Assembly (NCBI GenBank): GCA_947367055.1
Contig: CANBCI010000004.1
Coordinates: 1 to 43,824, forward strand
Reading direction: 5' to 3'
Length of the DNA: 43,824 nucleotides
From: an uncultured Alphaproteobacteria bacterium
GTDB taxonomy: Bacteria; Pseudomonadota; Alphaproteobacteria; Rs-D84
The position numbers and the translations under genes are program-made. The notes under the pieces are model-generated. The model ran no database searches. It was given only the letters and a program-made list of their open reading frames with translations, and was not told the origin of the DNA. Of the stretch, positions 11,518-27,736 are shown one piece after another (the first letter of the stretch is position 1; every line of letters begins with the position of its first letter).

Positions 11518-11721
11518 AAACCGGCGCAACCGCCGGTTTGAATTTATGGCGCACCCAGAAGATTCCCTCGGCATATAAATGCCTGCGGGGAAACCGTGAC
11601 GGCTCGATTACACTGCATTCATCTCGCCTACTTGTTTTCGAACCAGGCTTCTCATCCTGGGATGCACAACATAAATTAAAACCGGCGCAATCGCCGGTTT
11701 GAATTTATGGCGCACCCAGAA
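11518..11721. repeat. 43-bp direct repeat carrying the tRNA-Arg 3' end plus terminator
   Basis: Positions 11518-11560 and 11679-11721 match in 42 of 43 bases. Each copy holds the last 14 bases of tRNA-Arg with its CCA, a short spacer and a terminator hairpin (AAACCGGCG/CGCCGGTTT). The intact tRNA uses the right copy. Such duplication of a tRNA 3' end is typical of integration sites, although here only 118 bp lie between the copies. Confidence 0.85.
11547..11665 (-). other. 119-nt structured tRNA-end-like unit, possibly a remnant or an ncRNA
   Basis: On the minus strand GCATCCCAG (11657-11665) can pair with CTGGGTGC (11551-11558), which is followed by G and CCA, exactly as in the neighbouring tRNA-Arg. 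Inside are a GGTTCGAA T-loop-like string, CCAGG/CCTGG, and a strong nested hairpin (TTCCC...GGCAT-TTAT-ATGCC...GGGAA). It does not fold into a normal tRNA and has no anticodon arm. It is followed by a terminator (11518-11540). I do not recognise it as tmRNA, 4.5S RNA, 6S RNA or RNase P RNA. Confidence 0.4.
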
Positions 11722-11839: not shown

Positions 11840-11868
11840 TTGTAAAATAATTGCAAATGCAGTATAAT
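11840..11868 (+). promoter_or_regulatory. Predicted promoter of the structured leader before the 12070 gene
   Basis: TTGTAA (11840-11845) and TATAAT (11863-11868) have a 17-bp spacer. The expected start (about 11875) falls on the first base of the leader's 5' hairpin. Confidence 0.75.
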
Positions 11869-11874
11869 CTGCTT

Positions 11875-12069
11875 GATGTGCATGGAACGCACATCGGGAT
11901 GTCGAAACCCATAAGTTATAGTGTCCGAGGGGACAATAAATACCTCCAATCAAACCAAGGTTGGAGGGTGGCGATATATCTAAATAAGCCCACTATTTCC
12001 TATAACTTAATAGTTTCGAACCTCCAACCACCATTCGTTTGGTGGTATTTGGTGTTAAAAGGAGAAATT
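11875..12069 (+). promoter_or_regulatory. Structured 5' leader RNA, type member of a repeated leader family
   Basis: The leader holds, in order: hairpin H1 (GATGTGC 11875-11881 / GCACATC 11889-11895); a GGG/CCC hairpin whose loop includes TCGAAAC (11902-11908); TAAGTTATAG (11912-11921); hairpin TGTCC/GGACA (11922-11935); P4, CCTCCAA (11943-11949) with TTGGAGG (11961-11967); P3, GTGG...CCAC (11968-11993) with loop GATATATCTAAATAA; CTATAACTTA (12000-12009) and GTTTCGA (12013-12019), which pair with the two upstream strands (P2, 10+7 bp); CCTCCAACC (12021-12029), which can pair with GGTTGGAGG at 11959-11967 (P1, exclusive with P4); and P0, CCACC/GGTGG (12028-12045). AAGGAG and the ATG follow. 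The same plan recurs before 16754 and 26906. No riboswitch class I know fits. Confidence 0.8.
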
Positions 12070-13008
12070 ATGAAAAAATCTTTTATACTGGGATGCATAA
12101 TGTTGCCCATGGCGGCATTTGCCGACATTATTGCCGATGCACAATCCCAACTACAGGCGACGCGCATAATATGTGACGGCATATCCGATGATTTATCACG
12201 CGTGTCAGGCGTCGCAAAAACAGACAGCGCAATTACTGCGATTGGCACGGTCGCGGGTGGCGGCGCGGTGTATGCCGGATTTAAAAAATTAAAATGGGAT
12301 CAAGAAATTGAAACGTTAATGGATAAAATGTGCGCCGGTGGCGGATGTTCTGCAAACGCTATAAAATCAATGTCAGATGATGATTTCGTAGAAAATGTTC
12401 TAACCCCAATGGCGGACATGTCAAAGTTGGCCGATGAAATTGCCAATGCGGAAAAGAAATCAAAAAAGCTGGGTAATTGGCGTACGGGGTTGATGGCGGG
12501 AAATGCCGCAACCAATATTGCGTCATCTATTATAGCCGGACTGAATAAAAATCAGTCCGATTTGGTTCAGCACATCATTGCGTGCAATAATTCTTTGAGT
12601 GACTTAAATTCCGCCTATTATAATTTATTGGATGCGGGAATAAATCCGTATGAAAATCCCATTATGACCAAAATCGTCAAAATTAGGGATAATTGCGGCG
12701 AAATCAGCAGCAAGGATATTGCGGAGATAGAACAAAGTATGTCCAGAACTATGGAAATTGGTATTGCAGGGGGCGCCATAGGTGTTGCCGGCACTGCGGT
12801 AAGCGCTACCGCAAATTCCGACAAAACTCGCAATAACAACAGCGAGAAGGGCCAACAAAAAGAAGAAAAATTAAATTTCACCGCAAATATATTGGGTGTT
12901 GTCAGCACCGGGAGCAGCGTTTTAGGCACAGTCTCCAACATATCAACGGTTTCAACAATTAAAAAGCTCATCAAACGGGCGCAATATTGCGAGGAGGCTT
13001 TACAATGA
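12070..13008 (+). CDS. Exported protein of unknown function under the structured leader
   Basis: The 312-residue protein starts MKKSFILGCIMLPMAAFA, a signal peptide cleaved near residue 18; AGGAG lies 6 bases upstream. The mature part is helical and polar, with three Gly/Ala/Val/Ser-rich hydrophobic stretches (AIGTVAGGGAVYAG, GIAGGAIGVAGTAVSA, ILGVVSTGSSVLGTVS) that resemble glycine-zipper segments and might insert in a membrane. Cysteines recur in pairs (CAGGGC). The family is not recognised. Its TGA stop overlaps the ATG of the next gene (ATGA), so the two are cotranslated. A longer ORF (from 11851) runs through the leader and is not supported. Confidence 0.75.
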   Translation: MKKSFILGCIMLPMAAFADIIADAQSQLQATRIICDGISDDLSRVSGVAKTDSAITAIGTVAGGGAVYAGFKKLKWDQEIETLMDKMCAGGGCSANAIKSMSDDDFVENVLTPMADMSKLADEIANAEKKSKKLGNWRTGLMAGNAATNIASSIIAGLNKNQSDLVQHIIACNNSLSDLNSAYYNLLDAGINPYENPIMTKIVKIRDNCGEISSKDIAEIEQSMSRTMEIGIAGGAIGVAGTAVSATANSDKTRNNNSEKGQQKEEKLNFTANILGVVSTGSSVLGTVSNISTVSTIKKLIKRAQYCEEALQ

Positions 13009-16346: not shown

Positions 16347-16754
16347 TTATTTTATGTCCCTAAAAATTGCAGTGCGAAACGGTTTGTTTGACACAATGTC
16401 ACGCGCGCAAAAACTGGCACACCAATTTTCGCATTCATTTGCGTAAACATAACTGCGCAAAAACACATACTGTGACCGAAAGGGATTTGATATTCGGCAC
16501 CAGCATCCAATTGCATCATCGGCATCTTCGGGCGCGGGCAACGTTTCGGCCTGCGTATATGCGCGCGCTTCAACATCGGTGCAAACACCGACACCCTTGA
16601 CCGTCAGTTCATCCGTGCTGTTATCGCATAACGCCGCCCAATTATCACCGGAATATTCCGAATTTTTACACTTTATTTCCGGCGGCAGCATTTTGGCGCA
16701 ATACGCCGCCTGTGAAATAAACGCCAGACCAGTGGCAATCATCAGATATTTCAT
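16347..16754 (-). CDS. Small cysteine-rich exported protein under a structured leader
   Basis: This 135-residue protein begins with a signal peptide (MKYLMIATGLAFISQAAYC, cleaved near residue 19). The mature region has ten cysteines, including KCKNSEY, ALCDNS, GVCTD, GCWCRISNPF, NECENWCASFC, enough for several disulfides. No family is recognised; it ends in a short basic stretch (RTAIFRDIK). AAGGGG lies 9 bases before the ATG. It is transcribed from a strong predicted promoter at 16996-17024 through a 235-nt structured leader of the same design as those before 12070 and 26906. Confidence 0.75.
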   Translation of the reverse strand: MKYLMIATGLAFISQAAYCAKMLPPEIKCKNSEYSGDNWAALCDNSTDELTVKGVGVCTDVEARAYTQAETLPAPEDADDAIGCWCRISNPFRSQYVFLRSYVYANECENWCASFCARDIVSNKPFRTAIFRDIK

Positions 16755-16989
16755 TTTCTATTTCCCCTTTGGTTAAAGAACAAAACCACCAAAATTGGTG
16801 GTCGGGAAGTTAGAAAAATCATAAATCAGAATGATCCCGCTGGTCTTTGGGCGAACCCTGTTGTATAACCAACGGCCTCCCGACAAGGCGCCGGGCAAGC
16901 ACGGGAACGTCCCGTGGCATTGGATACGGTGCACTGCACCGCTGATTTATGGGATTTTCTACGTCCCGAACCCACATCCCTGCGGATTC
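16755..16989 (-). promoter_or_regulatory. Structured 5' leader RNA, divergent member of the family
   Basis: Read on the minus strand from about 16989: a GGG/CCC hairpin containing TAGAAAATC (16953-16961); ATAAATCAG (16942-16950); hairpin GGTGCA/TGCACC (16929-16940); strong hairpin CACGGGA/TCCCGTG (16900-16916); CCCG/CGGG (P4); GTCGGGA (16878-16884); a two-hairpin arm in place of the P3 loop; CTGATTTAT (16821-16829) and GATTTTTCTA (16811-16820), which pair back to the first two strands (P2); TCCCGAC (16801-16807), which pairs with GTCGGGA (P1); P0 CCACC/GGTGG (16786-16801); then AAGGGG and the ATG at 16754. Every stem has sequence unlike the 12070 leader, yet the plan is kept. The conserved 15-nt P3 loop is absent here. 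Confidence 0.75.
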
Positions 16990-16995
16990 AATGCA

Positions 16996-17024
16996 AGTAT
17001 AATTTATATTTTGGGCAAATACAA
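16996..17024 (-). promoter_or_regulatory. Predicted promoter of the 16754 leader
   Basis: On the minus strand TTGTAT (17019-17024) and TATACT (16996-17001) are separated by exactly 17 bp. The start would be near 16989, at the beginning of the structured leader. Confidence 0.75.
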
Positions 17025-26345: not shown

Positions 26346-26906
26346 TTAATCCTTTTTGTTATATAAATCCCACAGATATTCAAATTGCTGTGAAAATGGT
26401 ACCGACATGTCATCCATAAATATGCAGTTTTCCGCATTGTCACGCGTCGCCGTATATGTCCAATTGTATGAACCGCTTACCACCATTTTATTATCAAATA
26501 TGGCAAATTTGTTGTGCATTATGCGGTGCAACAGATTTTCATTCGCGGGCTTTGATTCGCCGCCCTTTTTATATATCATTCGATATTCATAATTCGTGAC
26601 AAATGGTATGCCGGCTTTCTTTAGTTCCTGTGTGACGGAATATTTACCCTTTGACTGCTGATAATCTGCAATTATGCGAATGTTTGCGCCGCGGTTATGT
26701 GCGCGGATTAACGCATCACGAATATTATGGTTTGTAATGGAATACACGGCCACATCAATATTATTGGCACCGTTAATATTTTTTATTATTTGGTCTTCGC
26801 AGTCGGTTCCCGGCGAAAAATAAACGCGTGGCGCCGAACATATTGCAACATTGCCGACACAAATAACGCCAATTGCGGCAATCGCCGCAGTGGTTAATTT
26901 TTGCAT
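26346..26906 (-). CDS. Exported phospholipase D-superfamily nuclease (Nuc-like)
   Basis: The 186-residue protein has a signal peptide (MQKLTTAAIAAIGVICVGNVAICSA) and one HKD motif: H131, K133, D138 in MHNKFAIFDNK, followed by GSYNWT. Length, single HKD and VAVYSITNHNIRDALIRAHNRGANIRII are typical of Nuc/endonuclease-like PLD proteins, which act as dimers on DNA without metal. Exported Nuc enzymes degrade extracellular or periplasmic DNA. It is the third exported-protein gene preceded by the structured leader (26907-27118). The G-run GGGGGGAT lies near the ATG as the ribosome-binding site. Confidence 0.9.
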   Translation of the reverse strand: MQKLTTAAIAAIGVICVGNVAICSAPRVYFSPGTDCEDQIIKNINGANNIDVAVYSITNHNIRDALIRAHNRGANIRIIADYQQSKGKYSVTQELKKAGIPFVTNYEYRMIYKKGGESKPANENLLHRIMHNKFAIFDNKMVVSGSYNWTYTATRDNAENCIFMDDMSVPFSQQFEYLWDLYNKKD

Positions 26907-27179: not shown

Positions 27180-27350
27180 CCGCTATACAAGATAGACGGA
27201 TTGGAGGTTAGTCTTAACATTCTGGAATGCGCACAGCCTATTCAATATATTCAGCCGCCTCCAATCCTGTTTTGGATTGGCGTTTAACGCCCGCGTGGCG
27301 TCCAGAATGCGAGAGACTAATCTCGCATAATAGGCTCACCTATTACAATT
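27180..27350 (-). promoter_or_regulatory. Orphan full copy of the structured leader, not next to a gene
   Basis: Read on the minus strand: AATAGG/CCTATT hairpin (27329-27344); GCGAGA/TCTCGC hairpin (27309-27326) whose whole loop TTAGTC (27315-27320) pairs with GACTAA (27208-27213); CATTCTGGA (27301-27309) pairs with TCCAGAATG (27218-27226); P4, CCAATCC (27274-27280) with GGATTGG (27261-27267); P1, GGATTGGAGG (27258-27267) with CCTCCAATCC (27198-27207); P0, CCG/CGG with CTAT/ATAG (27180-27199). Compared with its neighbour, an A-T change is matched in all three P1/P4 strands. It has its own predicted promoter but runs towards the PLD leader, not into a nearby ORF. Confidence 0.7.
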
Positions 27351-27562: not shown

Positions 27563-27646
27563 CCCGAAAACTTTCATGCGGTTGGAGGTTAAGAACTATA
27601 ATACTCAATAGTGTCACTTATTCAAATATATCGTGACCCTCCAACC
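27563..27646 (-). repeat. Partial copy of the structured leader
   Basis: Holds CCTCCAACC/GGTTGGAGG (27580-27588 with 27638-27646), the GTCAC/GTGAC hairpin (27613-27637) with loop GATATATTTGAATAA on the minus strand, and a P0-like GAAAACTTTCA segment shared with the PLD leader. The outer P2 partner and promoter part are missing. Confidence 0.7.
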
Positions 27647-27669
27647 ATATGTGATTAAAATATTGTTTA

Positions 27670-27736
27670 TGTTGGAGGTTCAAAACCATTAAGGCTAATA
27701 GCGTCGTTTATTCAATATATTCACGACCCTCCAACC
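27670..27736 (-). repeat. Second partial copy of the structured leader
   Basis: GTTGGAGG (27671-27678) pairs with CCTCCAAC (27728-27735), and GTCGT/ACGAC (27703-27727) closes the conserved loop GAATATATTGAATAA (minus strand). P0 and the P2 partner are absent, as in the adjacent partial copy. Confidence 0.7.

Follow-up and report, generated by a model that had tools for sequence, protein, structure and literature searches.

An mRNA leader laid out like the C4 antisense switch of phage P1, found in many copies in an uncultured alphaproteobacterium

Why should a set of interleaved RNA helices persist in two leaders that have diverged in sequence? This question is raised by the window, by which we mean the whole 43,824-nucleotide stretch of DNA from an uncultured alphaproteobacterium that was analyzed. 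A sequence-only reading had placed a promoter and a leader of about 235 nt in front of the exported Cys-rich gene 16754-16347, and had described this leader (leader 2; 16990-16755, minus strand) as a diverged copy of the one that precedes gene 12070 (leader 1; 11866-12069, plus strand), with every stem kept.

Two leaders and the family to which they belong

The promoter and the leader are both present in the sequence, and so are the stems that had been named: CCACC/GGTGG, stem P1 and both parts of P2. Stem P1 is GTCGGGA/TCCCGAC, with its 5' strand starting at 16884 and its 3' strand ending at 16801. The features of leader 2, all on the minus strand, are as follows.

17024-17019 / 17001-16996, minus strand: promoter TTGTAT-17-TATACT (from the sequence)
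16968..16989, minus strand: 5' hairpin P0, GAATCC...GGGTTC (from the fold)
16951..16967, minus strand: a1 hairpin GGGA-CGTAGAAAA-TCCC (from covariation in 72 copies)
16942..16950, minus strand: b1 strand ATAAATCAG (from covariation)
16886..16941, minus strand: variable spacer hairpins, including an A strand able to pair with B (from the fold)
16797..16885, minus strand: C4-like RNA domain, type I (model R1, 81.4 bits, E 6e-19)
16786..16801, minus strand: hairpin CCACC-AATTTT-GGTGG, then a U-rich stretch, terminator-like (from the sequence)
16752..16767, minus strand: Shine-Dalgarno (SD) sequence GGGGAA and start codon, complementary to a' plus C (16821-16800; -12.9 kcal/mol)
16347..16754, minus strand: putative regulated gene, exported Cys-rich protein of 135 aa (from the sequence)

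The C4-like domain consists of a closing helix B:C, a hairpin P5 with a AUACAACA internal loop, a hairpin P6, the strand a', the strand C and an ACC end. Five further C4-like copies bring the number in the window to six. The main features of leader 1 and the positions of the other copies are:

11863..11868, plus strand: -10 element TATAAT of leader 1 (from the sequence)
11896..11910, plus strand: a1 hairpin GGG-ATGTCGAAA-CCC of leader 1, with a1 at 11901-11908
11911..11921, plus strand: b1 of leader 1, ATAAGTTATAG, pairing with 12000-12009
11959..12032, plus strand: C4-like RNA domain of leader 1, type II (model R2, 60.1 bits, E 3e-13), with a' at 12013-12021 and C at 12021-12029
12070..13008, plus strand: putative regulated gene of leader 1, exported protein of 312 aa
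26963..27032, minus strand: C4-like domain of a third full leader, type II (R2, 39.1 bits, E 7e-8)
27198..27266, minus strand: C4-like domain of a fourth full element (a1 TTAGTCT / a' AGACTAA), without a gene of its own (R2, 26.0 bits, E 2e-4)
27577..27646, minus strand: bare C4-like unit without a1/b1 domain (R2, 55.5 bits, E 4e-12)
27671..27735, minus strand: second bare unit without a1/b1 domain, in tandem with the preceding one (R2, 62.0 bits, E 9e-14)

The third full leader precedes an exported PLD-like gene (26346-26906, minus strand; PF13091). No gene belongs to the tandem bare units (27577-27735, minus strand), which are followed downstream by two full elements and the PLD-like gene; other leaders are their possible targets in trans.

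Both leaders fold more stably than their shuffled controls (z = -4.8 for leader 2 and -5.9 for the 12070 leader), and 0 of 200 shuffles were as stable. Shuffled sequences also failed to reproduce the pairings as often as the leaders do: for either leader, one dinucleotide shuffle in 3000 contained the full interleaved set, scored as closing helix, hairpin-loop helix and following-strand helix in that order. The suggestion that the leader should recur before orthologues of the 16347 gene was borne out by an orthologue of 87% identity (locus L005, genome G061) and by one of 45% identity in G019, where the leader lies about 90 nt upstream (G019:C5:61492-61580). Related Cys-rich genes in four other genomes (G025, G017, G026 and G081) are preceded by the leader as well. 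The product of 16347-16754 itself has no Pfam match. Exported Cys-rich proteins related to it form a large genus-wide family (loci L007-L033), with at least 20 copies in some genomes.

Covariance models R1 (type I, from 23 copies) and R2 (type II, from 13 copies) were built from copies of the genus with both window leaders excluded. R1 finds leader 2 and R2 finds leader 1, each with the score given above. The two leaders are therefore diverged members of one family with two P5 subtypes: type I, represented by leader 2, carries an extra GGG/CCC sub-hairpin in P5, and type II, represented by leader 1, has a short P5. Hence the claim that every stem was kept is correct for the shared interleaved architecture and not quite right for P5, in which the two leaders differ. 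Likewise, the leaders are diverged relatives, as had been proposed, and rather than a pair they are two of about 64 copies. An origin of tRNA or T-box type had been considered because of a GGGUGG motif and a tRNA-Arg at 11711; this idea was dropped, given that the tRNA is on the other strand and that other copies have no adjacent tRNA.

At gathering thresholds, the only Rfam families matched were tRNAs. In E-value mode, RF02221 (sRNA-Xcc1) fits the 3' domain of leader 2 end to end (model positions 1-87 of 87; 39.2 bits, E 0.0018), with a score below the gathering cut-off of 53; leader 1 is not among the matches listed. The same model matches the leaders of four relatives at identical position and strand. 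Across the genus, it has matches in 53 of 96 genomes, two copies exceeding the cut-off (57.8 and 55.5 bits), and there are none in 14 control genomes. The closing helix, P5 with its internal loop, and P6 of the RF02221 secondary structure are all found in the leader. By model match and fold, the 3' domain of the leader is a relative of RF02221. The models RF01695 (C4) and RF03163 (c4-a1b1) match neither the leaders nor the RF02221 relatives in other Proteobacteria.

Complementarity of the antisense strand to two sites

In nearly every full copy, a hairpin with the stem GGG/CCC or alike stands upstream of the RF02221-like domain. The loop of this hairpin (a1) is the partner of a', the strand that leads into the 3' closing strand; b1, the strand that follows the hairpin, is the partner of b', the loop of hairpin P6, which is the second of the domain. 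In leader 2, a1 (16962-16955) pairs with a' (16818-16809; TAGAAAA/TTTTCTA within), and b1:b' is ATAAATCAG/CTGATTTAT (16950-16942 / 16829-16821). Among 72 non-redundant copies of the genus, with 54 distinct a1 and 71 distinct b1 sequences, the b1:b' helix averages 8.1 contiguous Watson-Crick pairs. At least six such pairs are present in 68 of the 72; with partners swapped between copies, the mean falls to 3.8 and the fraction with at least six to 5.5%. The a1:a' helix is present in 69 of 72 copies versus 19% after swapping, a value that is biased because the a1 hairpins were picked by loop complementarity; b1:b' played no part in this choice. The pairs are maintained by covariation, and we regard it as strongly supported by the sequences that leaders 1 and 2 are diverged relatives kept in this way and not recent copies of a mobile repeat. 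The earlier statement that the leader is not a mobile repeat holds in the sense of recent copying; elsewhere, the wider RNA family occurs at phage-type genes and in integron cassettes.

Permutation of partners by pairing energy gave the same picture. The antisense strand prefers its own 5' domain with Z = -10.2 in the genus (n = 37), -11.9 in the own genome (n = 42) and -8.7 in other Proteobacteria (n = 33); 0 of 5000 permutations reached the observed value in each of the three sets. Row and column means were removed from the RNAduplex energies, since plain energies are confounded by GC content. Complementarity of a' and b' to upstream a1 and b1 within one transcript, one of several traits of C4, is what these copies display.

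The antisense strand also matches the ribosome-binding site (RBS) of its own gene. In other Proteobacteria, the P6 loop and the strand that follows it are complementary to the SD region (Z = -8.9; 0 of 5000). In the own genome and the genus, a' plus C is complementary to the own SD/AUG (Z = -5.1 and -5.0, respectively; 0 of 5000 permutations each), and in the genus this match spans the SD and the start codon. There, only a' and C match: b' shows no match to the SD region (Z = 0.2 to 0.3). In the duplex predicted for leader 2, antisense UUUUUCU and UUCCC face AGAAAAU(G) and GGGAA in the SD/AUG region. At the level of sequence, these comparisons demonstrate a double complementarity that covaries copy by copy. 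The mean energies of a' plus C in the own genome are -17.6 kcal/mol against the 5' domain and -11.7 kcal/mol against SD/AUG. Because pairing with the decoy in cis is the more stable, repression would need cleavage or some other trigger.

This pattern assigns a role to the interleaved pairings that was absent from the sequence-only reading: P2, in both parts, and P1 appear to pair a C4-like antisense RNA with upstream decoy sites.

A C4-type switch weighed against other readings

The reference system is the immI leader of phage P1. As annotated, it contains a promoter, a1 (48255-48261), b1 (48269-48276), c4 (48343-48419, 77 nt) and, after c4, a2 and b2 at the SD of icd; Rfam finds both C4 and c4-a1b1 in it. 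When folded, c4 shows a closing stem and two hairpins, the second with b' in its loop; a' precedes the 3' closing strand, and the RNA ends in CCACC. In phage P1, RNase P cuts at the 5' side of the stem to give the processed C4 RNA, which then keeps ribosomes from binding, with b' acting at the RBS and a' providing specificity (PMC5320573). Compared with c4 of phages P1 and P7 (clan CL00128: C4 RF01695, c4-2 RF02944, c4-a1b1 RF03163), our leader has identical elements in identical order, including a closing stem that encloses two hairpins, a single strand before the 3' closing strand and an RBS downstream; its 5' hairpin P0 is positioned like the 5' hairpin of phage P1 c4-a1b1. On the strength of sequence and predicted pairing, the leader is a structured RNA whose anatomy is that of the C4 antisense switch in phage P1. 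There are also differences. P5 contains an AUAnAA internal loop in type I leaders and is very short in those of type II, the RBS in the window genus is matched by a' plus C and not by b', and in place of one phage copy before icd-ant there are dozens of chromosomal copies before genes for exported proteins. Since R1 does not find c4 in phage P1, we do not claim homology with C4; for the same reason, together with the lack of RF01695 and RF03163 matches and a score below the RF02221 cut-off, we do not file the leader in RF01695. By analogy, the leader is built like C4 and probably works like C4. At one locus from the wider survey (L113), an RF02221 copy stands before a gene for a P22-type antirepressor, and about 1.3 kb away, at 2890-2958 on the minus strand, c4-2 (RF02944) matches weakly.

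We consider it likely, by this analogy, that the leader, at the start of the mRNA, is a C4-type antisense-RNA control module and that this module has multiplied greatly outside phages. The module would run from the promoter through a 5' hairpin, the a1-loop hairpin, b1 and spacer hairpins to the C4-like RNA (closing helix B:C, hairpin P5, hairpin P6 with loop b', strand a'), followed by a short hairpin and SD plus AUG. While the antisense strand is on a1, b1 and B, it would be held in a pseudoknot and leave the ribosome site free; on SD/AUG it would block translation. From the leader anatomy and the precedent of phage P1, we infer antisense repression, probably preceded by RNase P cleavage: a cut on the 5' flank of B, where the enzyme acts in phage P1, would part the antisense RNA from its decoy, and the freed RNA could repress in cis or in trans. 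Signatures resembling those of RNase P substrates are limited to a GG at the start of B in most copies and RCC following the stem in 82% of genus copies but 49% of own-genome copies, the lower figure counting against the reading. The module would have been multiplied to dozens of copies per genome in this small-genome order, each with its own a/b code.

Part of this anatomy could also be read as a transcription attenuator, in which C, the CCACC/GGUGG hairpin and the following U's act together as an intrinsic terminator and the outcome, termination or read-through, depends on B:C pairing. A hairpin and a U-rich run directly follow C in 36 of 50 own-genome copies, and the CC of the C strand is common to both helices. 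B:C and the hairpin overlap by only about 2 nt, however, and in other Proteobacteria the hairpin usually lacks the U run, yet the antisense match to the RBS is strongest there. As a full account, we regard attenuation as unlikely. It may coexist with the antisense mechanism, in which the hairpin and U-run after C may contribute termination or supply the end of the free leader as a small RNA.

We give still less weight to a riboswitch or protein-binding leader. Such a leader would use a double pseudoknot with a conserved AUAnAA loop to bind a small molecule or a protein, and the B:C helix versus the terminator or SD as an expression platform. The pseudoknot architecture, the conserved P5 internal loop AUACAAnA, and a C strand complementary to the SD and partly shared with the CCACC/GGUGG hairpin would all suit this purpose. 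As a ligand-binding core of conserved sequence, only AUAnAA of P5 comes into question. On the other side, the most constrained helices, a1:a' and b1:b', are hypervariable, unlike a ligand pocket. The dozens of copies per genome with differing codes, the antisense match to the RBS in other Proteobacteria and the lack of a pathway common to the downstream genes argue in the same direction. Similarly improbable in our view is a stand-alone sRNA, as Rfam files RF02221, that lies upstream of genes by chance and acts on distant targets. The Xanthomonas sRNA-Xcc1 was indeed mapped as an 88-nt RNA (PMC2996969), and some copies have no adjacent gene or are bare tandem units. Against this stand 40 of 50 own copies that adjoin an SD-bearing ORF, in most cases 33-58 nt after the domain, and an antisense strand that matches its own gene better than the genes of other copies. 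The C4-type module is the reading to which we return below.

Spread of the module and its meaning

The own genome, that of a gut bacterium, measures 0.96 Mb and holds 25 R1 and 45 R2 matches (E <= 0.001) at 64 distinct places. Across the order, R1 matches 129 and R2 matches 123 of 142 genomes (E <= 1e-4), with matches per genome reaching at least 31-35. The seven genomes of families f2, f3, f5 and f6 have no R1 or R2 matches and double as a negative control. An ORF follows within 140 nt in 40 of the 50 own copies examined. Among these ORFs, 33 are signal-peptide-like by a simple rule that counts membrane helices too and that selects 16 of 45 window genes. The exported-looking products include Cys-rich proteins, a beta-barrel, a trypsin-like protein, PAP2 and others; the downstream genes share no common pathway.

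Several copies depart from the simple arrangement. In the own genome, an array of at least seven C4-like units (L244; C3:144000-145560), some head to tail and with a repeated spacer TTTAATTCCCGTAATAATTGTTTGCA, ends in a full leader before a Cro/C1-type HTH gene (MSGRPFKPSEIDVYIGQ...). At another own-genome locus (L217; C2:264850, plus strand), a 33-nt direct repeat places the a1/b1 segment TTAGTAGATTGGCTTAGAATACCAAGATATTAC upstream and, unchanged, again just downstream of the C4-like domain. Four loci of related genomes (L057, L088, L101 and L102) have no SD/ATG directly downstream; instead, a hairpin carries TCTTATCTCCACA in its loop.

Amplified C4-type RNAs are not without precedent, because many C4-like RNAs (Group 1), with apparent processing on the 5' side of their closing stems, have been reported from one Acinetobacter baumannii genome (PMC5320573). 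Those RNAs are strongly conserved among themselves, match Rfam C4 and have targets that are still open. In contrast, the copies described here are highly diverged, number about 64 in 0.96 Mb and mostly lie in leaders of their own genes.

The RF02221 model and its annotation contain neither an upstream a1/b1 domain nor a link to a downstream gene. We found both here, and both accompany RF02221-like RNAs in other Proteobacteria as well. In the most widespread Xanthomonas cassette, sRNA-Xcc1 stands upstream of symE (PMC12444791). Pfam assignment of 38 genes downstream of RF02221 matches in other Proteobacteria returned SymE (5), BRO-N (5), Rha (3), P22_AR_N and KilA-N. Such genes, for SymE toxins and phage antirepressors, are of the kind that C4 controls in phage P1, which fits a C4-type role at phage regulators. 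Within a search that covered few subscription papers, we found none that links RF02221 with C4 or describes these alphaproteobacterial leaders.

Given some 64 diverged copies, mostly before genes for exported proteins, it appears that an RNA switch of phage type has become a regulator acting across the genome. A broader proposal, toward which our doubt slightly outweighs our confidence, is that antisense RNA of the phage-immunity type may be the main post-transcriptional control layer of this reduced-genome order, with about 64 private-code, largely insulated switches for the exported proteome and arrays of bare units acting in trans on top. The finding links three things that have been filed apart: the orphan sRNA-Xcc1, C4 of phage P1 and a leader family of uncultured Alphaproteobacteria. 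If our reading is true, RF02221 would be a leader element of C4 type that lacks its 5' half and has targets of a known kind. As a set of cis-linked antisense switches within a single bacterial genome, the copies would rank among the largest, and they would constitute a natural collection of orthogonal translation switches. Small genomes of this kind would then control their surface and secreted proteins by dozens of insulated antisense switches.
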